From: Lachnospiraceae bacterium
GTDB lineage: Bacteria > Bacillota > Clostridia > Lachnospirales > Lachnospiraceae
DNA: 35,294 nucleotides
Assembly: GCA_017480565.1 (NCBI GenBank)
Contig: JAFVAL010000051.1
Span: 1-35,294, forward strand
Reading direction: 5' to 3'
In this document: piece after piece, positions 373 through 18,371 of the stretch
How positions within the stretch are numbered: position 1 is the first letter of the stretch
Layout of the letters: each line of letters starts with the position of its first letter
Program-made: the position numbers and the translations under genes
Notes under the pieces: generated by a model
What the model was told of the DNA's origin: nothing
The model's input: the letters and a program-made list of their open reading frames with translations, nothing else
Databases searched by the model: none

Positions 373-798
373 TTATTCTTCTTTCAACAGTTCATCCATC
401 GTGTGCCAACCGAGCACCGCGCATTTGACACGAGCGGGCATGTGAGAGATGTCCTGCAGTGCACAGGCTTCTTCCAGTTCCTCCATCTCTTCGTCAGTAA
501 TCTTTCCCTTGATCATGCGAAGAAAGATCTCGGAGAGGTGCTTTGCCTCTTCGACGCTGCGGCCGATGATCAAATCCAGCATGATATCTGCGGAGGCTTG
601 TGAGATCGCGCAGCCGTCGCCGGTGTAGGCACCGTCAACGATCTCGTCATTTTCCACTTTCAGCTTTAAGACGATGTTGTCGCCGCAGCTCGGATTGACG
701 CCGCGCAGCTCCATGTTTGCGTCCGCAAGTTCGTGTTTGTGTGCTGGGCGCAGATTGTGATCCGTCAGGATCTCGTTATAAAAATTATTCGTTGCCAT
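373..798 (-). CDS. sufU: SufU iron-sulfur cluster assembly / sulfur-transfer protein
   Basis: 141 residues, normal for SufU. The zinc/sulfur-acceptor ligands are all present: Cys38 and Asp40 in NPSCGD, Cys63 in GDGCAIS and Cys126 in RVKCAVLGW. The insert around residues 98-118 that separates SufU from IscU is also present. In Firmicutes SufU accepts persulfide sulfur from SufS and stimulates it, feeding the SufBCD scaffold in the cytoplasm. The start at 798 has a GGGAG site and overlaps the end of sufS by 14 bp, so translation is probably coupled. It is the last gene of the operon. Confidence 0.93.
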   Translation of the reverse strand: MATNNFYNEILTDHNLRPAHKHELADANMELRGVNPSCGDNIVLKLKVENDEIVDGAYTGDGCAISQASADIMLDLIIGRSVEEAKHLSEIFLRMIKGKITDEEMEELEEACALQDISHMPARVKCAVLGWHTMDELLKEE

Positions 799-2029
799 AG
801 CCCATTTTCTCCCTTACGGTGGAAAGACTTGCCACGAGACGGTCGATGTCTTCTTCCGTGTTATAGAAGGCAATGCTTGCCCTGGTGGTGGAAGGCGTTC
901 CTAAAAACTGCATGAGTGGCTGTGCACAATGATGTCCTGCGCGGATATCCACGCGGTCTGCATCCAGCATAGCGGCGATGTCATGTGGATGGACACCGTC
1001 CACGAGGAAGGTAAAGATGCCGTGGTGTTCCTTCGGATCGTCAGATCCAAGGATGTGCAGATGCTGCACTTTGGAGAGCTTCTCGTACGCGTAGATGCTT
1101 AAGTGCTCCTCGCGCTCTAAGATGCGCTCCCAGCCGATCTTTTTGTAGTAGCGGATCGCAGCACCTAAACCCACCGCACCGGATGCGTTGACCGTGCCTG
1201 CCTCAAACTTGTGCGGCAGTTCCGCATAGGTCGCGCCTTCACGGGTGACATATTCGATCATCTCGCCGCCAAAGAGGAACGGAGGCATCTGCTCAAAGAG
1301 CTCGCGCTTGCCGTAGAGTACACCGATGCCCATCGGGGCTAACATCTTATGGCCGGAACAGGCAAGAAAATCGACGTCTAAGTCCCGCACGTTGACAGGC
1401 ATATGAGGGACGCTCTGCGCACCGTCACAGACAAAGAGAGCACCGTTTTCATGGGCAATCTTTGCAAATGTCTTCACATCATTTTTCACACCGAGGACGT
1501 TGGAGACCTGGGTCATCGCAACGAGTTTTGTCTGCGGTGTGAGAGCAGCGCGAAACATCTCTTCAGTGATTTTTCCCTTGGGATCGCACTCCAGATAATG
1601 CAGATGCGCACCGCGGCGTTTCGCGGCCTGCTGCCAGGTGAGCAGGTTGCTATGATGCTCCATGATGGTGATCAGGATATCATCGCCTTCTTTGACAAAA
1701 GCCTCTGCCGCCGAATAGGCAAGCAGATTGAGGCTTTCGGAAGCATTTCTTGTAAATACAATCTCCTCTGTGGAGGCCGCACCGATGAATTCGCGCACCA
1801 GCTCTCTGGCATCCTCATAGGCATCGGTGGCCCGCATGCTCAGCTCGTAGAGACCGCGCAGCGGATTCGCGTTGTCCTTGACATAATAGTCGCGGACCGC
1901 ATCGATGACGCACTGCGGCTTTTGTGTGGTCGCTGCGTTATCAAGGTAGGCGATGTCTGGATAGGTTGTAAATAAAGGGAAATCCGCGCGGATCTCCTGA
2001 TCCTCTAACTTTCTCTCTAAATCAGTCAT
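785..2029 (-). CDS. sufS: SufS group II cysteine desulfurase
   Basis: 414 residues from the ATG at 2029, chosen because GGAGGA precedes it; an upstream ATG at 2071 lacks a site and lies inside sufD. It is a PLP-dependent aminotransferase-fold enzyme that removes sulfur from L-cysteine and gives it to SufU. The PLP-stacking His pair is near residues 125-126 (MEHHSN), the Schiff-base Lys is at 228 in SGHKMLAP, and the catalytic Cys is at 368 in RAGHHCAQP. The start overlaps the end of sufD by 8 bp and the end overlaps sufU. Confidence 0.95.
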   Translation of the reverse strand: MTDLERKLEDQEIRADFPLFTTYPDIAYLDNAATTQKPQCVIDAVRDYYVKDNANPLRGLYELSMRATDAYEDARELVREFIGAASTEEIVFTRNASESLNLLAYSAAEAFVKEGDDILITIMEHHSNLLTWQQAAKRRGAHLHYLECDPKGKITEEMFRAALTPQTKLVAMTQVSNVLGVKNDVKTFAKIAHENGALFVCDGAQSVPHMPVNVRDLDVDFLACSGHKMLAPMGIGVLYGKRELFEQMPPFLFGGEMIEYVTREGATYAELPHKFEAGTVNASGAVGLGAAIRYYKKIGWERILEREEHLSIYAYEKLSKVQHLHILGSDDPKEHHGIFTFLVDGVHPHDIAAMLDADRVDIRAGHHCAQPLMQFLGTPSTTRASIAFYNTEEDIDRLVASLSTVREKMGYGNE

Positions 2030-3059
2030 GATCGTCCTCCTTCGGTAAGAGAAGGGTTCTCGTGGTTTCATCCGGGATCTTTTTGATCACCGCATCGATA
2101 CGGGCGGAAGCCATCATCTCGATGACGGAAGCCTCATCCATACCGCGGGACTCTGCGTAGAAGAGGGCGTCTTCGTCGAGACGTCCGATCGTCGCACCAT
2201 GGTTGCCTTCGACGTCTTCTTCCGCACACAAGATCAGCGGAATGGTCTGGTTGACCACGTCATCACTTAAGAGCAGCACATCCTCACGCTCGTCGCCGAC
2301 AGAGCCTGCGCAGCCGTTGATGAAATCTATGGTGCCGCGGAAGACTTTCTTTGCATGATCTGCAAGGACACCATCCGCCTGGATCTCGCAGGAGGTCTTC
2401 TTGCCGGTGTGGTAAGCGTAGTAGTTCATATCGAGCTTGCTCTCTCCCTGGAGGCGATAGCCGATATCAGTCTTTAAGTCACTGTGTCTGCCCTCTAAGT
2501 TGACGCGGCAGCCCTGATAGACTTCCTTTCCGCCAAGCATCACATGGATGATATGCACATCTGCGCGGTCTTTAACACGGCCGCCGATGTCATTGACCAG
2601 TGTAAACTGTTCTCCGGGACGAAGGATCTGCACGAGAGTCAGATGGGAATCCTCTTCCAACTCAAAGAGGGTCTGCAGCGCGGCAAAACCGGTTGCTTCA
2701 GAGGTGAGATCCATGACCGCGACCAGAGACGTTCCTGCATTCAGATGCAGAGAAATGACGTTGCCAGCCTGTGCGTCTTTGGCGTAATCTGTGCGGATGC
2801 GAAGCGGCTTAGCAGGAATCGATCCGGCAAGCACATCGTAGGAGAGTACCGGGACATCCTTTAAGTAATCGGTGAGGGCATCTCCGGCCCCGGTCGGAAC
2901 CGCGATGCGAGCGGATTCATTTGCCACGACATGCACAGGGACTTCGACTTTAAGATCTGCAGGCACCGGTGCGTCCTTGACAGTTAAATCTGCGTTATTT
3001 AAATGTAGCCAGCCATAGGTGTAAGCCGGCAAATGGTTGATTTTCATCGTTCTTTCCAT
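2022..3059 (-). CDS. sufD: SufD, Fe-S cluster scaffold subunit
   Basis: 345 residues, related to SufB but shorter, with the beta-helix core (about residues 100-270) and the conserved C-terminal segment GNHGATIGRLDEDALFY followed by SRGMDEASVIEMM, typical of the SufB/SufD superfamily. It forms the SufBC2D scaffold complex where clusters are built. The start at 3059 has GGAGG 6 nt upstream; the Met at codon 5 is a possible alternative. It lies 11 bp after sufB and overlaps sufS by 8 bp. The order C-B-D-S-U differs from the sufC-D-S-U-B order of Bacillus, but it is not rare in Clostridia as far as I recall. Confidence 0.9.
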   Translation of the reverse strand: MERTMKINHLPAYTYGWLHLNNADLTVKDAPVPADLKVEVPVHVVANESARIAVPTGAGDALTDYLKDVPVLSYDVLAGSIPAKPLRIRTDYAKDAQAGNVISLHLNAGTSLVAVMDLTSEATGFAALQTLFELEEDSHLTLVQILRPGEQFTLVNDIGGRVKDRADVHIIHVMLGGKEVYQGCRVNLEGRHSDLKTDIGYRLQGESKLDMNYYAYHTGKKTSCEIQADGVLADHAKKVFRGTIDFINGCAGSVGDEREDVLLLSDDVVNQTIPLILCAEEDVEGNHGATIGRLDEDALFYAESRGMDEASVIEMMASARIDAVIKKIPDETTRTLLLPKEDDHD

Positions 3060-3070
3060 AGGCGGCCTCC

Positions 3071-4483
3071 TTATCCAATGGCACCCTTCATCTCCAGACG
3101 GATCAGATTGTTCATCTCGATCGCATATTCCAGAGGAAGTTCTTTTCCAACATTATCTGCAAATCCACTGACGATCATCGCACGGGCATCGTCTTCGGCG
3201 ATACCGCGGCTCATCAGGTAGAAAATCGCGTCATCACTGATGCGTCCAATGCGGGCCTCGTGTCCGATGTCGGCCTTTGAGGTGCGGATGTCCATCGCAG
3301 GGATCGTATCCGAGCGGGAAATCGTATCTAACATCAGGGACTGGCAAGAGACTGCGGACTTGCTCTCCGGCGCATTCTTGGTCACAACCACGGAGCTTCT
3401 GAACGTGCTGATACCACCGCTCTTACTGATCGAACGGGTGTTGACGACCGAAGAGGTCTGTGGCGCATTGTGTACGACCTTGCAGCCAGTGTCCAGATTC
3501 TGGCCTTTGCCAGCAAATGTAACGCTCGTAAATTCAGAGCGAGACCCCTTGCCTGCAAGCACACTCATCGGGTAGAGATAGGAGACATGGGAACCAAAGG
3601 ATCCGGAGACCCATTCGACCTTGCCGCCTTCTTCGACGCGGGCACGCTTGGTGTTTAAGTTATACATATTCTTCGACCAGTTTTCGATGGTCGAGTAACG
3701 CAGGGTTGCGTTCTTTCCAACAAATAATTCCACGCAGCCTGCATGGAGATTCGCCACGTTATATTTCGGTGCGGAACATCCTTCGATGAAATGCAGATAG
3801 GCACCTTCATCGACGATGATTAAGGTGTGCTCAAACTGGCCAGCACCGGGGGCATTTAACCGGAAATAAGACTGCAGAGGGATCTCCACGCTCACCCCGG
3901 GTGGAACGTAGACAAAGGATCCGCCGGACCAAACCGCACCGTGCAGGGCTGCAAACTTGTGATCGGTCGGGGGCACAAGCTTCATGAAATGATCATGAAT
4001 CATGTCCGCGTAAGGGCCGTGAAGCGCGCTCTCTAAATCCGTATAGATGATGCCCTGTGCAGCGACTTCCTCCTTGACGTTGTGGTAGACAAGTTCGGAG
4101 TCAAACTGTGCGCCGACACCCGCGAGGGATTCACGCTCTGCCTGCGGAATTCCTAGCTTTTCAAAGGTATCTTTGATCTCTTCCGGCACTTCTTCCCAGT
4201 CCGCATGCATCTTCGTGTTCGGACGGACATAAGTGACGATATTGTTCATATTCAGGCCTTCGATGGAAGGACCCCAATCAGGCATCTGCGTCTGATTGTA
4301 GATGTCGAGTGAATGCAGACGAAATTCGCGCATCCACGCCGGGTCTTTCTTCTCGTCAGAAATCGTCTTTACGATCTCCGGGGTCAGACCCTCATCCACC
4401 TTGTAGGCATCTTTATTCTCAAACCGAAAGTCATAGAGAGAACGGTCGATGTCTTCTACGTAAGTTTTATCTTCTGTTGCCAT
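3071..4483 (-). CDS. sufB: SufB, Fe-S cluster scaffold subunit
   Basis: 470 residues, the usual SufB length. Typical blocks are visible: GVWSGGSFVYVPPGV-like (residues 182-197), FIEGCSAPKY (232-241), HAGCVELFVGKNATLRYSTI (247-266) and the C-terminal ADIGHEARIGRISDDAIFYL. Cys380 in AVSCQSLML is at about the place of the essential E. coli SufB cysteine (my alignment by eye). With SufC and SufD it forms the ATP-driven cluster assembly scaffold. The start at 4483 has an AAAGGAT site. It lies 14 bp downstream of sufC in the same operon. Confidence 0.95.
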   Translation of the reverse strand: MATEDKTYVEDIDRSLYDFRFENKDAYKVDEGLTPEIVKTISDEKKDPAWMREFRLHSLDIYNQTQMPDWGPSIEGLNMNNIVTYVRPNTKMHADWEEVPEEIKDTFEKLGIPQAERESLAGVGAQFDSELVYHNVKEEVAAQGIIYTDLESALHGPYADMIHDHFMKLVPPTDHKFAALHGAVWSGGSFVYVPPGVSVEIPLQSYFRLNAPGAGQFEHTLIIVDEGAYLHFIEGCSAPKYNVANLHAGCVELFVGKNATLRYSTIENWSKNMYNLNTKRARVEEGGKVEWVSGSFGSHVSYLYPMSVLAGKGSRSEFTSVTFAGKGQNLDTGCKVVHNAPQTSSVVNTRSISKSGGISTFRSSVVVTKNAPESKSAVSCQSLMLDTISRSDTIPAMDIRTSKADIGHEARIGRISDDAIFYLMSRGIAEDDARAMIVSGFADNVGKELPLEYAIEMNNLIRLEMKGAIG

Positions 4484-4497
4484 ACATGCGCCATCCT

Positions 4498-5238
4498 TTA
4501 ATTGTGTTCGTAGCGTGCAAAACCATCGCGGTTGATCTCATCGACAAGAGAGCCGTCCCCATTTGCCACGATCTCGCCATCCACCAGAATGTGGGTGTGA
4601 TCGACGTGCAGAGAAGAGAGGATGCCGGTCGAGTGCGTGATGATGATCAGTGCAGAATCCTTGTCCTTCTGATACTCCAAAATGCCGCGGGAAACCGTAC
4701 GGACCGCATCGACATCAAGGCCGGAGTCGGTCTCGTCAAGGATTGCAAGAGAAGGCTTCAACATCAGAAGCTGCAGAATCTCTGCTTTCTTCTTCTCGCC
4801 GCCGGAGAAGCCGACATTCAGATCACGCTCTGCGTAGGAAGGATCCATCTGCAGCACTTCCATGGCTTTTTCAAGCTCCTTCTTGAACTGGAAAATGCGG
4901 ATGCGCTGGCCGGTTTTCTGCTCCAGGGCACTGCGGATAAAGTTAGAGAGCGTGATGCCAGGCACTTCGATCGGGTTCTGGAAGCTCATGAAAATGCCTG
5001 CCTTCGCGCGCTCATTGACAGGCTTCGCCAGTAAGTCCTCGTCCTGGAAGAAAATGGATCCGCCATCGATGTGGTAGGCGGGGTTGCCCATGATCGCGTT
5101 GCCGAGTGTGGACTTGCCGGCACCGTTCGGTCCCATGAGAACGTGGGTCTCTCCCTTGTTGACCTGGAAGGTTAAATTCTTTAAAATCTGTTTTTCTTCG
5201 ACACTAACGGATAAGTTGTCGATGGAAAGTAATGACAT
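4498..5238 (-). CDS. sufC: SufC, Fe-S assembly ATPase
   Basis: 246 residues from ATG 5238, which has GGAGGAG at proper spacing; an in-frame ATG at 5301 lacks this. It is an ABC-type ATPase: Walker A GPNGAGKST (36-44), Q-loop FQNP (86-89), signature FSGGEKKK (144-151), Walker B LAILDETDSGLD (164-175) and switch His in ITHSTG (200-205). The insertion ETDSGLD is characteristic of SufC. It drives conformational change of the SufBCD scaffold. It is the first gene of the operon, behind the promoter at 5326-5353. Confidence 0.95.
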   Translation of the reverse strand: MSLLSIDNLSVSVEEKQILKNLTFQVNKGETHVLMGPNGAGKSTLGNAIMGNPAYHIDGGSIFFQDEDLLAKPVNERAKAGIFMSFQNPIEVPGITLSNFIRSALEQKTGQRIRIFQFKKELEKAMEVLQMDPSYAERDLNVGFSGGEKKKAEILQLLMLKPSLAILDETDSGLDVDAVRTVSRGILEYQKDKDSALIIITHSTGILSSLHVDHTHILVDGEIVANGDGSLVDEINRDGFARYEHN

Positions 5239-5300
5239 AAGTGTCTCCTCCTTGATGGAATCTATCAAAATACCGTGGAATGTGGTCAAAATCAATTCCA

Positions 5301-5311
5301 AGTAATTTACT
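5301..5311. promoter_or_regulatory. Small inverted repeat in the sufC leader, possible operator
   Basis: AGTAATTTACT is an 11-nt dyad (5-bp arms around one base) just downstream of the expected suf transcription start. It might bind a regulator, but short AT-rich dyads arise easily by chance. Confidence 0.2.
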
Positions 5312-8035: not shown

Positions 8036-8602
8036 TTAATGTCTTTTCTTGCGGCGGTCCCTGCGCCACTGCGGGAGGACGACCGTTTTAATGTAGGAGT
8101 AGAGCGCTTCTTCACCCTCTTCTGCAAGCATCACAAGCAGCTTTTCTAACAAGGCACTCGTGTCCGGATGCATGAACCGGGAAGGGTTGCCTTTCTGGTA
8201 GTAAGCGAGTGGATCTTTCTGTGTGTAGGCATCTCCATTATAGACTTTGCAGGCCGCGATGCGGTCCATGCACATCTCAACCACATAATTGACAGGCATC
8301 TTCATGCCGGCAAGCTCGATCTGACCGTCTTTTCTGACATAATCAATCCAGTATTCATAATGGTGTTTGTTGCGCCCCTTGTGGTGCAGCCACGCGGTGG
8401 AGAGGCCAGTATCTTCGCGCTCCGCGTTATTTGGACTGCGATTGCCCTGCCAGTAACGCGCGCCGACGATGAATTCGGTGGGAGAGTATTTGCTCAGATC
8501 GTGCAGCAATCCTTGACGGTAGAGGCCGACGCGGAAACACTCCTGCATGACCATATGGCGGTGTGTGGTAATCGTTTTAAAATGCTTGATCGGATGAAAC
8601 AT
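8036..8602 (-). CDS. DUF5662 family protein (HD-like metal-binding motifs)
   Basis: 188 residues. Conserved-looking blocks are GLLHDLSKYSPTEF (residues 31-44, a His-Asp pair) and WLHHKGRNKHHYEYW (71-85, His-rich). These resemble HD-type metal phosphohydrolase helices and match what I remember of DUF5662. Later, a PVNYVVEMCMDRIAACKVY helix carries another acidic pair. The function is unknown; a metal-dependent hydrolase is plausible but unproven. A promoter lies upstream at 8642-8669. The gene stands alone and converges on the GDPD gene. Confidence 0.75.
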   Translation of the reverse strand: MFHPIKHFKTITTHRHMVMQECFRVGLYRQGLLHDLSKYSPTEFIVGARYWQGNRSPNNAEREDTGLSTAWLHHKGRNKHHYEYWIDYVRKDGQIELAGMKMPVNYVVEMCMDRIAACKVYNGDAYTQKDPLAYYQKGNPSRFMHPDTSALLEKLLVMLAEEGEEALYSYIKTVVLPQWRRDRRKKRH

Positions 8603-8686: not shown

Positions 8687-8714
8687 TTGACAACACAATT
8701 TAATTTGATACAAT
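8687..8714 (+). promoter_or_regulatory. Promoter of the gpx-trxR-trxA-ohrR operon
   Basis: Consensus -35 TTGACA (8687-8692), 16-bp spacer and -10 TACAAT (8709-8714) with a TGA extension (8706-8708). The OhrR-type operator at 8709-8723 overlaps the -10, so repressor binding would block RNA polymerase. Confidence 0.88.
8694..8708. promoter_or_regulatory. Degenerate second OhrR-like half of a tandem operator
   Basis: CACAATTTAATTTGA is directly adjacent to the perfect operator with a 15-bp offset. It keeps the ACAATT-N-AATT core but loses the right arm. It lies in the promoter spacer and could be a weak second site. Confidence 0.4.
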
Positions 8715-8723
8715 TGAATTGTA
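8709..8723. promoter_or_regulatory. OhrR operator
   Basis: TACAATTGAATTGTA is a perfect dyad (7-bp arms around one G). It matches the OhrR operator pattern TACAATT-N-AATTGTA known from Bacillus subtilis ohrA. It overlaps the -10 of the operon that ends with an OhrR-like gene, which indicates autoregulation. Confidence 0.85.
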
Positions 8724-8773
8724 GAAAATCGAAAGACCGCTAGAGAGCGGAAAATTATTATGGAGGTATGAAA

Positions 8774-9319
8774 ATGAGTAGCGTATATGATTACAGTGTC
8801 AAGAATATCAAGGGCGAAGACATTTCTTTAAAGGAGTTTGAAGGCAAGGTCATGTTGATTGTCAACACCGCAACCGGCTGCGGCTTCACCCCTCAGTACA
8901 AAGAGATCGAAGAGATGTATGAGAAGTATCATGAGCAGGGTCTTGAGATCATCGATATCCCTTGCAACCAGTTTGCAGGCCAGACCCCTGGCACGGATGA
9001 AGAGATTCATGAGTTCTGCACACTCAAGTATAAGACCCAGTTCCCGCAGATGAAGAAGAGCGAAGTCAACGGTGAGAACGCACTGCCGCTTTACGGATAT
9101 TTAAAGAGCCAGAAGGGCTTCGAGGGATTTGGTATGAACCCGATGGCGATCGCGATGAACACGATGCTTAAGAAGATCGACAAGGATTATAAGAAGAATC
9201 CGGACATCAAGTGGAACTTCACGAAGTTTGTTGTCGACCGTGCAGGCAACGTGGTTGCACGTTTTGAGCCTACCCACAGCATGAAGGATGTCGACAAATG
9301 TGTCGCTTCTCTGTTATAA
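8774..9319 (+). CDS. Glutathione-peroxidase-family (thioredoxin-dependent) peroxidase
   Basis: 181 residues. The start at 8774 is preferred because GGAGGT lies 6 nt upstream; an ATG at 8768 touches the site. The peroxidatic Cys36 is in NTATGCGFTPQY, the catalytic Gln66 in IPCNQFAGQ, and Trp147-Asn148 in KWNFTKFVVD, giving the full Gpx tetrad. Cys64 and Cys82 are candidates for the resolving cysteine; which one is not decided here. Cys-type Gpx proteins of bacteria usually use thioredoxin rather than glutathione, and thioredoxin and a reductase-like gene follow. It is the first gene of the OhrR-controlled operon and reduces organic or lipid hydroperoxides in the cytoplasm. Confidence 0.92.
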   Translation: MSSVYDYSVKNIKGEDISLKEFEGKVMLIVNTATGCGFTPQYKEIEEMYEKYHEQGLEIIDIPCNQFAGQTPGTDEEIHEFCTLKYKTQFPQMKKSEVNGENALPLYGYLKSQKGFEGFGMNPMAIAMNTMLKKIDKDYKKNPDIKWNFTKFVVDRAGNVVARFEPTHSMKDVDKCVASLL

Positions 9320-9363
9320 TTTTCTTGTAGATATCAATTTTATTTCTTTCATGGGAGACTGAC

Positions 9364-10236
9364 ATGGGACGTTATGATATCGCGGTGATCGGAACCGGGC
9401 CTGCGGGACTGTCTGCAGCCATCACCGGAACCGTTCGCAATAAGAAGGTGTTGCTTTTAGGAAGCAAGGATTTAAGCCTTAAGGTGACGAAGGCACACAA
9501 GATTGCCAATTATCTGGGACTGCCGAATGCGGGCGGTGAAGAGCTCTCTGCGGCATTTCAGAAGCACATCGATGAGATGGGCATCGAAATCACAGAGGAT
9601 AAGATCAATGCGATCTATGGCATGGGTGACTATTATGTGCTGCAGGGCGGCGAGAACGTGATGTACGAGGCGACGAGCGTCATCCTCGCGACCGGTGTTG
9701 TGGCGGGCAAGCCGTTTCCGGGCGAAGAGGAGAACCTTGGCCGCGGCGTCAGCTACTGCGCGACCTGCGATGCAGCACTTTATCGTGGCAAGAATGCGGT
9801 GGTGATTGCGTACGCGCCGAAGGAAGAGCCGGAAGCAGATTTCCTTGCAGAAATGGCGGATCACGTGTATTATATTCCTATGTACAAAGAGGAGCCGCAG
9901 CTTTCCGAGAAGATTGAGATCGTGCGCAAAAAGCCGGTTTCGATGGAGCGCGACGGCAGCAAGATGAAGCTTGTGACGGATGACGGCGAGATTCTGACGG
10001 ACGGTATCTTTATCCTGCGCGAGGCCATTTCCCCGAAACAGCTGGTGCCAGGCCTTGTGACCGATGGGCCACATGTGGCGGTGGATCTTCAGATGAAGAC
10101 GAATCTCCCCGGATGCTTCGCGTGCGGCGATATCGCAGGAACCCCTTATCAGTACATTAAGGCAGCGGGACAGGGCAATGTGGCTGCGCTCTCTGCCGTG
10201 AGTTATCTAGATGAGTTGAAGCGAAGGAGTAAATGA
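9364..10236 (+). CDS. Thioredoxin-reductase-like flavoprotein lacking NADPH motifs (FFTR-like)
   Basis: 290 residues, shorter than typical TrxB (about 310). The FAD motif GTGPAG is at 10-15, the redox pair CATC at 132-135 and the C-terminal FAD motif CFACGDIAGTPYQYIKAAGQ at 251-270, so fold and redox site are those of low-molecular-weight thioredoxin reductase. At the place of the NADPH motif GxGxxA the sequence is VIAYAPKEEPEA (147-158), and the HRRxxxR motif is replaced by YIPMYKE. Both losses are described for the ferredoxin-dependent flavin thioredoxin reductases of Clostridium (FFTR) and the related DTR group. I infer that electrons come from ferredoxin or an unknown donor. GGGAG precedes the start. 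The stop overlaps trxA. Confidence 0.85.
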   Translation: MGRYDIAVIGTGPAGLSAAITGTVRNKKVLLLGSKDLSLKVTKAHKIANYLGLPNAGGEELSAAFQKHIDEMGIEITEDKINAIYGMGDYYVLQGGENVMYEATSVILATGVVAGKPFPGEEENLGRGVSYCATCDAALYRGKNAVVIAYAPKEEPEADFLAEMADHVYYIPMYKEEPQLSEKIEIVRKKPVSMERDGSKMKLVTDDGEILTDGIFILREAISPKQLVPGLVTDGPHVAVDLQMKTNLPGCFACGDIAGTPYQYIKAAGQGNVAALSAVSYLDELKRRSK

Positions 10237-10550
10237 TGTTAAAAGAGATCTTAAATGACAACCTGGATGAAGTAAAGGGTTGTGAGTATGCAGTGGTTGA
10301 TTTTAATGCAACCTGGTGTGGCCCTTGTAAGATGATGGCACCTGTCCTTGATGATCTGGCAAATGAGTACGCAGGCAAGGTGGAGTTCTTTGGCTGTGAC
10401 GTAGATGAGAACCAGTATCTGGCACAGGAGTATGGGATCATGAGCATTCCGTGCCTTGGCTTTTTTAAGAACGGTGAGCAGTTGGATCAGAGCATCGGTT
10501 TTAAGCCGAAGCAGGTGATCGCTGCCTGGATCGAGGGTCATTTAAACTAA
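10236..10550 (+). CDS. trxA: Thioredoxin
   Basis: 104 residues with the classical active site WCGPCK (27-32), the buried Asp22 in VVDFNA and a cis-Pro region MSIPCLGFF near residue 70. The Thr before cis-Pro is replaced by Ile, and a Cys follows it. The start at 10236 is preferred over 10233 because GGAG is at better spacing; the ATG overlaps the TGA of the reductase gene, so translation is coupled. It very likely carries electrons from that reductase to the Gpx-type peroxidase encoded first in the operon. Confidence 0.93.
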   Translation: MLKEILNDNLDEVKGCEYAVVDFNATWCGPCKMMAPVLDDLANEYAGKVEFFGCDVDENQYLAQEYGIMSIPCLGFFKNGEQLDQSIGFKPKQVIAAWIEGHLN

Positions 10551-10576
10551 GACGTAAGGATGTGTGAGGGAGAGAG

Positions 10577-11044
10577 ATGGAGGAGCTTTGCAATTATGAT
10601 CAGCTGAAGCTGGAGAACCAGTTGTGTTTTCCGCTCTATGCGTGTGCGAGGAAAATCGTCAATCTCTACACACCGCATTTGAAACCGCTGGGACTGACGT
10701 ATACGCAGTACATCGTCTTTATGGTTCTCTGGGAGGCGAAGAGCATCTCGGTGAAGGATCTGTGCAAGAAGCTGTACTTAGATAGCGGAACCCTGACCCC
10801 CCTGCTTAAGAAGATGGAGGAGGCCGGGTACATCCTGCGCGCGAGATGTCACGAAGATGAACGTGTCGTGACCGTTACGATCACAGAGGAAGGCATGGCG
10901 CTTCGAGAGAAAGCTGCGGAGATTCCTGCAAAGATCGGTATGTGCGTGCCACTCGCCCCGGAAGAGGCGATGACGATGTACAAACTGCTCTATCAAGTGC
11001 TAAATCATGCGGGGGAACCCACAGAACATTTTGTAGAAGAATAA
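10577..11044 (+). CDS. ohrR: OhrR, MarR-family organic hydroperoxide repressor
   Basis: 155 residues. Residues 8-24 (DQLKLENQLCFPLYACA) carry the peroxide-sensing Cys17 in the OhrR context NQLCFxLYA. Tyr residues near 42 and 45 fit the thiolate-binding tyrosines. The winged helix includes LYLDSGTLTPLLKKME (residues 66-81), almost the signature of B. subtilis OhrR, and the wing segment CHEDERVVTV. A further Cys123 lies where two-Cys OhrR proteins have their second thiol, by rough position. The perfect OhrR operator at the operon promoter indicates that it represses its own operon and releases on oxidation. Confidence 0.93.
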   Translation: MEELCNYDQLKLENQLCFPLYACARKIVNLYTPHLKPLGLTYTQYIVFMVLWEAKSISVKDLCKKLYLDSGTLTPLLKKMEEAGYILRARCHEDERVVTVTITEEGMALREKAAEIPAKIGMCVPLAPEEAMTMYKLLYQVLNHAGEPTEHFVEE

Positions 11045-11052
11045 GTGAGAAG

Positions 11053-11078
11053 ACCGAGGCAAATTGTCTCGGTTTTTT
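11053..11078 (+). terminator. Terminator of the gpx-ohrR operon
   Basis: Stem ACCGAG (11053-11058) / CTCGGT (11067-11072), followed by a run of T. It lies directly after the ohrR stop. Confidence 0.85.
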
Positions 11079-11110
11079 CGTTTTGATACACAGATTGAGA
11101 GTAGGATTTC

Positions 11111-11176: not shown

Positions 11177-11797
11177 ATGGCGACTTCTATTTATCAGTGT
11201 TTGACGAGGATTACGGCAGCGATCACGGAAAACAAAGACTTTTTGACGGAACTGGACCGTGAGATCGGCGATGCGGATCACGGTCTTAATATGGCGCGCG
11301 GATTTGCGGCAGTACTTGAGAAGGTGCCGCAGGAAGAGCCGGATTTCGGCGTGGTGCTAAAAAAGGTCGGTATGACCTTGCTTTCCACGGTCGGCGGGGC
11401 GTCCGGACCTCTCTATGGAACGGCTTACATGGAGGCTGCGAAGGTGGCCGCAGGAAAGACTGAGATTACGGCGGATTTATTTGACGAGATGCTCGGCGCG
11501 GCGATCGCGGGCATTGAGCGCAGAGGAAAAGCGGTGCGCGGCGAAAAGACGATGTTAGATGCACTGATTCCGGCGAAGGATGCATTTGCAGAGAAGGTTG
11601 CAAAAGGTGCGTCTTTTGTGGAAGCCCTGGATGCAGCGTGTGCGGCTGCCGAAGAAGGAGTGGCATTTACCAAGACGATCGCAGCGACGAAAGGCCGCGC
11701 GGCTTATCTTGGCGAGCGCAGCATCGGACATCAGGACCCTGGCGCAACGAGCGCGACGCTGATGCTGGAAAGCATCCGCGATTATGTGAAAGGCTAG
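11177..11797 (+). CDS. dhaL: DhaL, ADP-binding subunit of PTS-dependent dihydroxyacetone kinase
   Basis: 207 residues from ATG 11177, preceded by AAGGAG and GGGA; earlier in-frame ATGs at 11111 and 11138 overlap the promoter. The Mg/ADP-binding motif is LDREIGDADHG (26-36), where the usual GDGDHG has Ala for the second Gly. TVGGASGPLYGT is the glycine-rich nucleotide loop, and GERSIGHQDPGATS is the C-terminal DhaL signature. DhaL holds ADP as a tightly bound cofactor that DhaM rephosphorylates, and it phosphorylates dihydroxyacetone bound to DhaK. It is the first gene of the operon, 3 bp before dhaM. Confidence 0.92.
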   Translation: MATSIYQCLTRITAAITENKDFLTELDREIGDADHGLNMARGFAAVLEKVPQEEPDFGVVLKKVGMTLLSTVGGASGPLYGTAYMEAAKVAAGKTEITADLFDEMLGAAIAGIERRGKAVRGEKTMLDALIPAKDAFAEKVAKGASFVEALDAACAAAEEGVAFTKTIAATKGRAAYLGERSIGHQDPGATSATLMLESIRDYVKG

Positions 11798-11800
11798 GCG

Positions 11801-12190
11801 ATGGTTGGACTGGTGATTGTCTCGCACAGCCCCAAGATTGCCGAGGGCGTGCGGGATCTGGCAAATGAAGTCGCTCGGGCATCCGGCCTGATTGTGGCAG
11901 CAGGCGGCCTGGAGGACGGATCGATCGGTACGGATGCCATGCGGATCCTGGATGCGATTCAGGAAGCAAATCAGGGCGACGGCGTGGCGATTTTGTGCGA
12001 TCTTGGCAGTGCGATTATGAGTGCGGAGATTGCACTGGAATTCTTAGGTAATGACGTGGCCGCAAAGATTGTGGACGCGCCTTTGGTAGAAGGCGCTGTG
12101 GCAGCCGCGGTGGAAGCATCCTGCGGCTCTTCACTTGAGGACGTGATTGGTGCCGCGGAGGCGGTGCGCGGTGAGAAAAAGATCTTGTAA
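11801..12190 (+). CDS. dhaM: DhaM, EIIA-Man-like phosphoryl carrier for dihydroxyacetone kinase
   Basis: 129 residues, an EIIA-mannose-type fold. The phosphorylated His9 is in VGLVIVSHSPKIAEGV, and AILCDLGSAIMSAE is the second typical block (conserved DLGS). It has only the EIIA-like domain, without fused HPr or EI domains, so it should take phosphate from the general PTS proteins encoded elsewhere. It starts 3 bp after the dhaL stop with only a poor site, so it is probably translated by coupling. Confidence 0.9.
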   Translation: MVGLVIVSHSPKIAEGVRDLANEVARASGLIVAAGGLEDGSIGTDAMRILDAIQEANQGDGVAILCDLGSAIMSAEIALEFLGNDVAAKIVDAPLVEGAVAAAVEASCGSSLEDVIGAAEAVRGEKKIL

Positions 12191-12215
12191 TTTTTCGAAT
12201 GGGAGGTTTTAGGCG

Positions 12216-13208
12216 ATGAAGAAGTTAATCAATGAGGTCGATACCGTCGTCGATGAGATGTTAAACGGTATGGTCGCGGCTTACCCGCAGTATGTGAAAC
12301 GTCTGGATGGATTTGATGTGCTCTTAAGAGCCGAGAAGAAAGAGAAGGTTGCCCTGGTATCCGGTGGTGGCGGCGGACACGAGCCTGCACACGGCGGCTA
12401 TGTGGGTTACGGAATGCTGGACGCAGCGGTCACCGGAGAGATGTTTACCTCCCCGACGCCGGATCAGGTGTATGAAGCAATTATGGCCGCAGATGCAGGC
12501 AAAGGCGTGCTTTTGGTGACCAAGAACTACACTGGCGATGTGATGAACTTTGAGATGGCGGCCGAGATGGCCGCAGATGAAGGCGTGGAAGTTGCACAGG
12601 TGATCGTGGCGGACGATGTCGCGGTGGAGAACAGCACGTGGACGACCGGGCGCAGAGGCATCGCGGGAACCGTATTTGTGCACAAGATTGCGGGTGCACT
12701 GGCGGAGACCGGTGCGGAGCTTTCAGAAGTAAAACGTGTCGCAGAGAAGGTCATTGCAAATGTGCGCTCTATGGGCATGGCGATCAATCCTTGCACAGTG
12801 CCGGCGGTTGGAAAGCCTGGCTTTGAGCTAGCGGAGGATGAGATGGAGATCGGTATCGGTATCCACGGAGAGCCTGGCGTACGCAGAGCAAAGCTTGAGA
12901 CCGTAAATGAGATCTCTGACGAACTGCTTGCAAAGATCTTTGCCGAAGACATTTTCCATGAGGGAGATGAGATTGCGCTGATGGTCAACGGCATGGGCGG
13001 CACACCGATTATGGAACTGTTCATCGCGAACAATCATGTGAGCGAAGTGCTCGCAGGAAAGGGTCTGAAGGTAGCTAAGACCATCGTCGGCAACTATATG
13101 ACATCACTTGAGATGGAGGGATTCTCGATCACGCTACTAAAGCTTGATGAGGAGTTGAAAGAACTGCTTTTCGCACCAGCGGATACGCCTGCATTTGTGC
13201 AGAGGTAA
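12216..13208 (+). CDS. dhaK: DhaK, dihydroxyacetone-binding subunit
   Basis: 330 residues, the usual DhaK length. GGGGGHEPAHGGYVG (50-64) is the substrate loop, with His55 near the active site. GIGIHGEPG (213-221) holds the His217 that forms the covalent hemiaminal with dihydroxyacetone. With DhaL and DhaM it converts dihydroxyacetone to its phosphate, which enters glycolysis. GGAGG precedes the start. It is last in the order L-M-K, whereas K-L-M is the common arrangement. Confidence 0.94.
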   Translation: MKKLINEVDTVVDEMLNGMVAAYPQYVKRLDGFDVLLRAEKKEKVALVSGGGGGHEPAHGGYVGYGMLDAAVTGEMFTSPTPDQVYEAIMAADAGKGVLLVTKNYTGDVMNFEMAAEMAADEGVEVAQVIVADDVAVENSTWTTGRRGIAGTVFVHKIAGALAETGAELSEVKRVAEKVIANVRSMGMAINPCTVPAVGKPGFELAEDEMEIGIGIHGEPGVRRAKLETVNEISDELLAKIFAEDIFHEGDEIALMVNGMGGTPIMELFIANNHVSEVLAGKGLKVAKTIVGNYMTSLEMEGFSITLLKLDEELKELLFAPADTPAFVQR

Positions 13209-15618: not shown

Positions 15619-17166
15619 TTGAGCAAACACTATGACATTGTGGTTGTCGGTGCGGGCAATGCGGGGCTTTCCGCGGCGCTGCACTGCGCGAAGGAGGGCA
15701 AAAAGGTCTTGCTTATCGAACAGCACAACCTCCCAGGGGGCTGTGCGACGAGTTTCGTGAGGGGGCGGTTTGAGTTTGAGCCTTCTTTGCATGAATTGTG
15801 CGATATCGGTACGGCGGAGGATCCAGCTGAGATTCGCCAGATGATGGAAGAGTACGGTGTGCACGTGGACTGGAAAGAAGTGCCGGACTGCTTCCGCATC
15901 ATCAGTAAGTATTCGGATGGTACACCGATGGATGTGACGATGCCTTCAGGCAAGGAGCCTTTCCTTGCAAAGATGGAGGAGTACGTGCCGGGAACTTCCA
16001 AGAAGATGAGAGAGTACTTTGAACTTCTGGAAGAGACGATGGCTGGTACCGCGTACATCAGTAATTCCAATGGCCATGCGGATTCGAATGTCTTAAAAGA
16101 GAAGTATCCGAACCTTTTAAGAACCGGTGCGTATCCGGTCAAGAAGGTCTGGGATGCGATGAAGCTTCCGCAGAAGTGTCAGGATATCATGTCCACCTAC
16201 TGGGGATACCTCGGTATCGACATGGAGAGAATGGCCTTCATCCACTACTGCAACATGTTCATGAAGTACGTGACCAGGGCTGCTTACATCCCGGCACATA
16301 CATCTCATGAGATCAGTAACAAGATGGTGGAGCGCTTTCGCGAACTGGGTGGCGATGTCTGGTACAACTGCCGGGCGGAGGAGTTCTTGTTCAACGGCGA
16401 TCGTCTCTGCGGCGTGAAGACCTCGATGGGCACGATTGAGTGCGATTACGTTCTGGCAAATATCAATCCAGACATCATTTATGCAAAAATGATGCCGAAG
16501 GATCTGATTCCGGAGCGTGAGAAGAAGCTGTCTGCCGCAAGAAATCACAACTACAGTGCAAGAATGTACACGGTCTACGTTGGACTTAATAAGACCGCGG
16601 AAGAACTTGGCATCAAGTATTACTGTATCTTCATGGCGGACACGGCGGACTCGACGAAGGAGTATAAAAACATTCTTGGCGGCTACGAGACCAACAACTT
16701 TACAATCTTCCTCTGTAATAATATCACGAACCCGGAGGCTTCCCCGGAGGGAACTTCGATCGGTTTCTTTACCTCCATGGGAAATCCAGACGAGTGGGGC
16801 AACCTTGCGCAGGAAGACTACGTTGCTTACAAGAATAAGTATGCAAAGAAGTTTATCCGCGAGTTGAAGGATCGTGCAGGTATCGATATCGAGCCTTACA
16901 TTGAGGAGATCTGCGTGGCGTCGCCGTGGACATTTGCAAGATACTTAGGAACCCCGGAGGGCAGTGTTTATGGATATGAGACTGCAGAGTGGGATGGCAT
17001 GATGGCAAGAATGATGATGCTTTCTAGCGACTATCCGATCAAGGGACTTCGCCCGATCGGTGCGGCAGGACCGAGAGGCGATGGCTACAGTTCTGCATAT
17101 GTCTGCGGACGTCTGATGGCAAGACTCGCCTTAAAAGATTTACGTGAGGAAGGGGGGCAGCAGTGA
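15619..17166 (+). CDS. FAD-dependent oxidoreductase of the phytoene desaturase (CrtI-like) superfamily
   Basis: 515 residues with a TTG start at 15619, chosen because GGAGG lies 10 nt upstream and the FAD motif begins at residue 6. DIVVVGAGNAGLSAALHCA is the N-terminal Rossmann motif, followed by GGCATSFVRGRFEFEPSLHE (40-59), which matches the GG-x-A/C-x-S/T region of CrtI-like flavoenzymes. The C-terminus has the second FAD segment LRPIGAAGPRGDGYSSAYVC. No carotenoid genes are nearby, so the substrate is unknown. Its stop overlaps the start of a flavin/[2Fe-2S] reductase, which may be its electron-transfer partner. Confidence 0.8.
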   Translation: MSKHYDIVVVGAGNAGLSAALHCAKEGKKVLLIEQHNLPGGCATSFVRGRFEFEPSLHELCDIGTAEDPAEIRQMMEEYGVHVDWKEVPDCFRIISKYSDGTPMDVTMPSGKEPFLAKMEEYVPGTSKKMREYFELLEETMAGTAYISNSNGHADSNVLKEKYPNLLRTGAYPVKKVWDAMKLPQKCQDIMSTYWGYLGIDMERMAFIHYCNMFMKYVTRAAYIPAHTSHEISNKMVERFRELGGDVWYNCRAEEFLFNGDRLCGVKTSMGTIECDYVLANINPDIIYAKMMPKDLIPEREKKLSAARNHNYSARMYTVYVGLNKTAEELGIKYYCIFMADTADSTKEYKNILGGYETNNFTIFLCNNITNPEASPEGTSIGFFTSMGNPDEWGNLAQEDYVAYKNKYAKKFIRELKDRAGIDIEPYIEEICVASPWTFARYLGTPEGSVYGYETAEWDGMMARMMMLSSDYPIKGLRPIGAAGPRGDGYSSAYVCGRLMARLALKDLREEGGQQ

Positions 17167-18371
17167 TGGCAGTAAAAGTGAAAGTCGGACTGATCGGCGC
17201 GCTGGACATGTTGAAGTTTAAGAACATGTCGAAGGTGCGTGAGGCAGCCATCCAGGCTGCGCCAGCCAAAGAAATCACCGCGGATTATGCGGTCAACAAC
17301 AATGCAAAGGCACTGCATCCGGACTTCCAGAAAGTGGTTGTTACGGAGATCATCGATCATCCGGGTGCAGATGCAAAGACCTTGGTTCTACGTGCGGCTG
17401 ACGGTGGAAAGCTGGCATATTTTAGAGCAGGTGAATATCTTTCTCTGAAGTTAAAGATCGGGCAGAGCTATGTCTCAAGACCGTACTCGATCAGTTCTTC
17501 CCCGAAGGAAGCGCTTGCGGGCAAATACGAGGTGACGGTGCGCACGAATCCGGGTGGATTTGCGGCAGACTATCTGTTAAATGAAGTCAAGGTCGGCGAC
17601 GAATTCCTCTGCTCCGCACCGCAGGGCAACTTCTATTATGAAGAGTTAAGAGATCCGGAGCACATCGTGGCGTTGGCAGGCGGCAGCGGTATCACACCAT
17701 TCCTTTCGATGGCCAAGGCGATCGCGGATGGCACCGAGGACTTTAAGCTCACGATTTTGTTTGGCAGCCGCACCGAGGAGCAGATTCTCTTTAAAGAGGA
17801 GCTCGATGCCCTTGCTGAGAATGACAAGATCAATGTCGTGCATGTGCTCTCCGATGAGGAAAAAGAAGGCTACGAGCATGGCTTTATCACGGCAGATCTG
17901 GTAAAGAAATATGCCTCCGAGGATTACAGTGTCTTTATCTGCGGACCGGAAGCGATGTATCGGTTCCTCGAAGGCGAACTGCCAAAACTTGGTCTTCCCA
18001 GAAAGAACATCCGCAGAGAGTTGCTTGGTGTGACGAAGAAGATCGCTGCGCATCCGGACTTCCCGCAGGAATGCGTTGGAGCGACTGTACAGATCACGGT
18101 ACGCCAAGGGGAGGTAGAGTGTGTGATCCCGGCATCGTGCGAAGAGCCGATCCTTGTTGCGGTCGAGCGCGCGGGTATCATTGCTCCTTCCCGCTGCCGC
18201 AGCGGTGAATGTGGCTGGTGCCGGTCGAAGGTGATCTCCGGTACATTCTTCGCACCGCCGGAGCACGAGGGCAGAAGGTATTCGGATAAAGAGACCGGAT
18301 ATATTCATCCTTGCGCAACCTTCCCGACGTCGGATCTGATCCTGGAAGTACCGGGAGAGTATCACGGCTGA
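17166..18371 (+). CDS. Ferredoxin-NAD(P)H reductase-type flavoprotein with C-terminal [2Fe-2S] domain
   Basis: 401 residues. The first 50 form a separate leader segment of unknown role. The FNR-like part has the FAD motif RPYSISSSP (105-113), GGFAADYLL, the NAD(P) motif ALAGGSGITPF (169-179) and FICGPEAMYRF (257-267). The plant-type ferredoxin domain at the C-terminus has the four ligands Cys344, Cys349, Cys352 (SRCRSGECGWC) and Cys383 (HPCATFP). Such proteins pass electrons from NAD(P)H through FAD and [2Fe-2S] to a partner. ATG 17166 overlaps the previous TGA (TGATG), and the end overlaps the next gene the same way. Confidence 0.88.
   Translation: MAVKVKVGLIGALDMLKFKNMSKVREAAIQAAPAKEITADYAVNNNAKALHPDFQKVVVTEIIDHPGADAKTLVLRAADGGKLAYFRAGEYLSLKLKIGQSYVSRPYSISSSPKEALAGKYEVTVRTNPGGFAADYLLNEVKVGDEFLCSAPQGNFYYEELRDPEHIVALAGGSGITPFLSMAKAIADGTEDFKLTILFGSRTEEQILFKEELDALAENDKINVVHVLSDEEKEGYEHGFITADLVKKYASEDYSVFICGPEAMYRFLEGELPKLGLPRKNIRRELLGVTKKIAAHPDFPQECVGATVQITVRQGEVECVIPASCEEPILVAVERAGIIAPSRCRSGECGWCRSKVISGTFFAPPEHEGRRYSDKETGYIHPCATFPTSDLILEVPGEYHG

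Follow-up and report, generated by a model that had tools for sequence, protein, structure and literature searches.

What does an OhrR regulator control in an anaerobe in which no Ohr protein is found, and where might the electrons for its target enzyme come from? The question is raised by a 35,294-nt stretch of Lachnospiraceae DNA (assembly GCA_017480565.1, contig JAFVAL010000051.1, positions 1 to 35,294; hereafter the window), in which genes for a glutathione-peroxidase-family enzyme (Gpx), a thioredoxin reductase, a thioredoxin (Trx) and OhrR follow each other on the plus strand. We consider it likely that these genes form an operon that regulates itself and protects an anaerobe from organic hydroperoxides, with OhrR as the switch and Gpx fed by ferredoxin through an FFTR-type reductase and thioredoxin.

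The operon begins with a sigma-70 type promoter (8687..8714, plus strand) matching 11 of 12 consensus letters, in which the −35 element TTGACA (8687-8692) and the −10 element TACAAT (8709-8714) are separated by a 16-nt spacer. Promoter-like sites number 6 in the scanned region versus 3.1 in shuffles, so the promoter call is weak alone. The −10 element is covered by a perfect dyad of the form TACAATT-G-AATTGTA, TACAATTGAATTGTA (8709..8723, no strand), the predicted primary OhrR operator; a secondary dyad with three mismatches, CACAATTTAATTTGA (8694..8708, no strand), abuts it within the −35/−10 spacer. The first gene, gpx (8768..9319; Pfam GSHPx), encodes a Cys-type enzyme and more likely starts at 8774, because GGAGG at 8762-8766 lies only 1 nt from the ATG at 8768. 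It is followed after 44 nt by the reductase gene (9364..10236; Pfam Pyr_redox_2, CATC redox motif), which overlaps by 4 nt with trx (10233..10550; WCGPC, PF00085 E 4.7e-26, TIGR01068 above cut-off), and after another 26 nt by ohrR (10577..11044; Pfam MarR), all on the plus strand. A hairpin with a U run just after ohrR (11046..11080, plus strand; −21.3 kcal/mol, z −5.86 versus shuffles in RNA folding) is a probable intrinsic terminator and is absent from the output of a terminator pattern scan. The original prediction of a single operon that starts under a perfect dyad overlapping the −10 element and ends with an OhrR bearing Cys17 in NQLCF holds. Its description of the dyad as a known OhrR operator form also agrees with the Bacillus subtilis OhrR box in PMC6034001.

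The regulator can be assigned to OhrR, and to its two-Cys type, from its closest solved relatives and its key residues. The best-scoring chains are 1z91 (E 1.7e-35) and 2pfb (E 7e-31), which are named organic hydroperoxide resistance regulator or OhrR and come ahead of SarZ, MgrA and MarR; 1z91 is the B. subtilis protein. Cys17, located within ENQLCFPLY, is invariant together with Y21, Y31 and Y42 in all 101 aligned rows, the window's own among them. In B. subtilis OhrR the reactive Cys and the conserved tyrosines are C15, Y19, Y29 and Y40. The second cysteine, C123, is present in 93 of the 101 rows, with some Cys within 119-127 in 98 of them, and in the phmmer alignment it is one residue off C127 of the Xanthomonas protein. 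B. subtilis OhrR is a one-Cys protein, unlike that of the window, and has reportedly been converted to a two-Cys sensor. The Pseudomonas aeruginosa homologues OhrR and OspR are placed in the two-Cys subfamily by PMC4999210. For comparison we used 100 related ohrR loci, composed of 20 OhrR-positive relatives and the best 80 of at least 589 ranked by likeness to the query; frequencies among them apply only to close relatives of the window OhrR. No close copies were found in the plasmid collection searched.

The strongest competing explanation, though an improbable one, is that the regulator is a broader MarR-family redox sensor of the MgrA/SarZ/AsrR kind, responding mainly to H2O2, hypochlorite or disulfide stress and having a regulon beyond the operon. 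The close relatives with solved structures also include SarZ and MgrA, and both ohr and gpx belong to the wide regulon of Enterococcus faecium AsrR (PMC3410868). However, the OhrR chains score best, and of the three sites in the window's own genome that are within two mismatches of the dyad only the one preceding gpx is intergenic, which suggests a one-operon regulon. In the 2.78 Mb genome no other site matches the dyad exactly; the next-best ones, C42:106983 with one mismatch and C3:7592 with two, both lie within long coding ORFs, presumably RluD-like and glycerol-kinase-like, respectively. The Cys and tyrosine set is likewise that of OhrR.

If the regulator is OhrR, its usual partner would be an ohr gene; however, no OsmC/Ohr protein was found in the window's own genome, which is 98.8% complete. 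In a set of 61 genomes (the window's own and 60 relatives, 21 OhrR-positive and 40 OhrR-negative) OsmC occurs in five, two of which are among the OhrR-positive ones, and it occurs in 2 of 49 further genomes carrying related ohrR. A strong Gpx match, on the other hand, is present in 19 of the 21 OhrR-positive versus 4 of the 40 OhrR-negative genomes (Fisher p 5e-10, only a guide, as the genomes are related). At the level of loci, 73 of 100 have gpx no more than 2.5 kb from ohrR, mostly upstream and on the same strand. Because both the co-occurrence with Gpx and the linkage are high and OsmC is rare, gene content places OhrR with Gpx, not with Ohr, in these bacteria. In other words, the pairing of OhrR with Gpx instead of ohrA that had been predicted stands; its presentation as exceptional does not, in view of the 73 loci and of the P. 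aeruginosa gpx-ospR precedent discussed below. Among the neighbours of the 27 gpx-less loci no single replacement enzyme is prominent. Four of these loci (L065, L068, L092 and L094) have a conserved multi-Cys ORF of about 86 aa just upstream of ohrR, which we take to be TSCPD-like and which is another possible OhrR partner.

The enzyme itself appears suited to thioredoxin. Aligned to yeast Hyr1 (3cmi), the window Gpx has C38 as the peroxidatic and C84 as the resolving cysteine, and 76 of 77 rows share C38, C66 and C84, with a gap in the remaining one. A pair of this kind is the Cys pair of thioredoxin-linked Gpx of the yeast Hyr1/Orp1 type, and the window enzyme, which has it, would probably use thioredoxin. 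As to glutathione as the Gpx reductant, the own genome has no match to the glutamate-cysteine ligase model PF04262, a weak negative, since the model matches only 2 of 14 control genomes.

By sequence, the reductase is an FFTR, for which ferredoxin would be the donor. Its best PDB match is 6gnc (E 1.3e-102), found along with 6gna and 6gnd, the next being 5j60 at 2.5e-31. According to PMC8469568, 6GNC is the clostridial CaFFTR2, 6GND its complex with thioredoxin 2, and 5J60 a Gloeobacter FFTR. The window reductase shares 54% identity with CaFFTR2 across 288 columns, enough for the sequence match to settle the fold. The NAD(P)H motifs GxGxxA and HRRxxxR, as defined in PMC10880999, are missing and CATC is kept both in the window reductase and in 10 OhrR-linked relatives; the FAD motifs and CxxC are retained in the window reductase. 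The original prediction had noted the missing NADPH motifs correctly and had gone no further than calling the enzyme motif-less. It had also claimed a complete hydroperoxide reduction chain in one transcript, which has to be given up because the reductase is assigned to FFTR: ferredoxin and a ferredoxin-reducing enzyme would have to come from elsewhere. Proteins of the pyruvate:ferredoxin oxidoreductase family (PF01855) are present in the genome. The other reductase of the genome, at C22:5639-6547, is 30% identical, carries GxGxxA (as GGGNSA), lacks HRRxxxR and falls below the TIGR01292 cut-off (295 versus 343 bits); the two are the only own-genome matches at E 1e-5.

An FFTR gene lies within the cluster in 10 of the 100 loci, 8 of which also have gpx. 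The window's order, gpx-fftr-trx-ohrR, is seen in L034, L062, L087 and L096; the others are gpx-fftr-ohrR (L055, L107), gpx-fftr-ohrR-trx (L060), fftr-trx-gpx-ohrR (L076), fftr-trx-ohrR (L061) and fftr-ohrR (L073). A box with at most two mismatches is located near the cluster start in seven of them (L034, L060, L061, L062, L073, L076 and L107). For L062 and L073 the longest predicted ORF already includes the box, so the real ORF start is presumably later. At three other loci (L050, L125 and L131) a reductase with both NADPH motifs takes an equivalent setting. Because FFTR recurs in 10 loci and is replaced in these three by an NADPH-motif enzyme, thioredoxin reduction is a module that recurs in the OhrR operon but can be exchanged. 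On the OhrR tree the FFTR loci are distributed over several branches with 6 changes, which at most hints that FFTR was gained or lost repeatedly, as the columns are few and 46 of 98 inner branches are open.

These same NADPH-motif loci, which imply that the operon role does not depend on ferredoxin, favour the idea that the window reductase uses NADPH or another donor, or that it serves general thioredoxin reduction unconnected with Gpx; a possible internal promoter preceding the reductase gene also speaks for it. We regard this explanation as slightly less probable still than the broad redox sensor, since GxGxxA and HRRxxxR are missing, FFTR structures are the closest, and the genome has the separate GxGxxA reductase, albeit one without HRRxxxR and below its family cut-off.

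The proposal of an OhrR switch also depends on the operator. The box and the promoter are kept in the single same-genus genome (G001, L034/L157) while the flanking bases diverge. Upstream of the related ohrR genes (98 regions from the 100 loci, two being too short) the best match has at most two mismatches in 41 regions versus 0.82 expected from first-order shuffles. Sites of this quality number 55 in 199.7 kb of ohrR/gpx cluster DNA versus 3 in 708.6 kb of flanking DNA of the same loci, a density about 65-fold higher, and at least one is present in 48 of 100 loci. The bases from −13 to −10 and from +11 to +13, which were unused in site picking, are conserved as a matching palindrome, pointing to a natural operator of about 27 bp. 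Of the 48 loci with a primary site, 21 have a second dyad with up to four mismatches at an offset of exactly 15 bp to either side, whereas other offsets up to 45 give one in at most 4% of loci. The window operator probably comprises two dyads in tandem, 8694-8708 directly followed by 8709-8723, so that the dyad described originally remains as the primary one but not as a single one.

The search for the operator upstream of gpx in related genomes, which the original prediction had suggested, was done on 24 gpx loci from the own and related genomes, counting boxes with at most two mismatches within 350 nt before the Gpx domain. Two loci, L160 and L167, were excluded because their contigs stop at the gene or close to it, and three strong Gpx matches without a locus of their own (two at G039:C23 and the window's) are uncounted. 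The box precedes 10 of 14 gpx genes adjoining ohrR, 4 of 7 located elsewhere in OhrR-positive genomes (perfect in G056, one mismatch in G012, two in G023 and G039) and none of the 3 in genomes without this OhrR. Control in trans is suggested by two of the unlinked cases: L139 (G056:C12:102813), whose perfect box is 42 nt upstream of the domain match, and L151 (G012:C42:26240-26560), whose one-mismatch box is 90 nt upstream of it.

Several observations weigh against the proposed operon function. As for the regulator, its score is below the curated cut-off of the NCBIfam Vibrio OhrR model NF052638 (157.5 versus 200 bits). Its association with gpx is incomplete: 27 of the 100 loci have no gpx within 2.5 kb, some of them being cut by contig ends, and the window's own genome has a second gpx (L155, C31:98684-99007) that is boxless and unlinked to ohrR. 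The FFTR call is made by homology and motif loss, only GxGxxA separates the window reductase from the one at C22, and no partner ferredoxin was found. A possible internal promoter, TCGACA-18-TATAAT with 11 of 12 consensus letters, spans the end of gpx before the reductase gene (9291-9320) and could uncouple reductase expression, yielding a basal fftr-trx-ohrR transcript independent of the operator. With regard to the box, 52 of 100 loci are without a cluster-region site of at most two mismatches, three of the ten FFTR clusters (L055, L087 and L096) have no good box, and the exact 15-mer is found in 9 of 200 family genomes versus 6 of 200 for a reversed control pattern. Of nine exact-dyad loci outside the own genome only one, that of G021 (L025), has gpx and ohrR within its 1.5 kb flanks. 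The bare dyad pattern is therefore no evidence by itself, its weight coming from position and conservation. That the dyad arose by chance in an AT-rich promoter and that something else, such as PerR, controls the operon is nevertheless highly improbable, because this small excess and the single matching locus are set against the positional enrichment in ohrR/gpx clusters, the 15-bp tandem register and the same-genus conservation amid diverging flanks.

For the self-regulated defence operon, the parts and their order, the protein families, the operator and its conservation with the cluster, and the failure to find Ohr are read from the sequence, and from them we infer binding, induction, electron donor and substrate. 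Reduced OhrR dimers would sit on the strong and the weak abutting dyads across the −35/−10 region and block transcription, a repression expected because of the operator and the homologues. An organic hydroperoxide would oxidise Cys17, which would then probably be linked by a disulfide to Cys123 on the other subunit, and OhrR would release DNA. The induced operon would then make the Cys-type Gpx, which would reduce the hydroperoxide and end as a C38-C84 disulfide. The operon thioredoxin would reduce Gpx and would itself be reduced by FFTR with electrons of reduced ferredoxin, not NADPH, the reduced ferredoxin being supplied, for example, by pyruvate:ferredoxin oxidoreductase. Since OhrR would be co-produced, repression would return once the peroxide falls. 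The thioredoxin may, in addition, reset the OhrR disulfide: a Chromobacterium OhrR is reportedly regulated by thioredoxin, and if that case applies here, the operon Trx would reset its own repressor. A wider scheme, in which OhrR of anaerobic Bacillota has been uncoupled from Ohr and runs a gpx regulon that is in part ferredoxin-powered through FFTR and Trx, with the same Trx resetting OhrR, seems to us evenly poised between right and wrong. If it is right, fermentation electrons would both remove the peroxide signal and close the switch, without NADPH.

As to the surroundings of the operon, a DUF5662 gene (8036-8602, minus strand) is divergent from it and has the upstream region in common. 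Directly 3' of the terminator, genes with Dak2, EIIA-man and Dak1 domains (11177-13208) follow in a DhaL-DhaM-DhaK-like order. Nearby on the minus strand (373-5301) there is an iron-sulfur assembly cluster with NifU_N and class-V aminotransferase domains, whose remaining genes are presumably SufB/C/D-like, and at 15619-18371 a FAD oxidoreductase gene is followed by one for a FAD/NAD-binding 2Fe-2S electron-transfer protein. The ORF preceding the second gpx of the genome is TIR-like.

Several known systems resemble parts of the operon. B. subtilis OhrR/ohrA, to whose family the best PDB matches belong (1z91/1z9c), has an operator of the same form, likewise located over the promoter, with the box TACAATTNAATTGTA (PMC6034001); the target there is ohrA, whereas in the window it would be gpx-fftr-trx, with no Ohr found. 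In the Streptomyces avermitilis ohrR-ohrB2 operator the OhrR footprint spans 28 nt and holds two 13-nt sites (PMC6034001), which are therefore about 15 bp apart, like the tandem dyads of the window, but this operator controls Ohr. Pairs of a reductase lacking NAD(P)H motifs and a thioredoxin are represented in clostridia by CaFFTR2/CaTrx2 (PMC8469568) and by Clostridioides difficile trxA1-trxB1 (PMC10880999); unlike in the window operon, no peroxidase partner or OhrR is named for them in the excerpts of these papers, and the main text of PMC10880999 uses none of the words gpx, glutathione peroxidase, OhrR and MarR. In titles and abstracts of open-licence literature no account of an operon combining OhrR, gpx and FFTR was found. 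The 15-bp dyad, often in tandem and inside a palindrome of about 27 bp, offers a handle for regulon searches in other genomes. A close likeness is to P. aeruginosa gpx-ospR (PMC4999210). There, the gene after gpx encodes a two-Cys OhrR homologue, which acts as its repressor and is induced by organic hydroperoxides. This operon differs from that of the window in that the excerpts of that paper name no thioredoxin or reductase in the operon, in its mapped box (AATTCAA-N-TTGAATT versus TACAATT-G-AATTGTA), and in that P. aeruginosa also has ohrR/ohr. Control of an ohr gene, which is not seen in the window's own genome, is usual but, as OspR illustrates, not defining for OhrR. OhrR-type control of gpx is already known, with gpx-ospR as a tested precedent, and new here are the presence of an FFTR and the failure to find Ohr, the latter suggesting that Ohr-less anaerobes handle organic peroxides by OhrR-controlled Gpx. 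In 2024 PMC10880999 described the role of FFTR in Clostridia as unexplored, and a putative OhrR-controlled operon in which a single FFTR goes with a single thioredoxin and a single peroxidase provides such an enzyme with a specific, testable job and an inducer.

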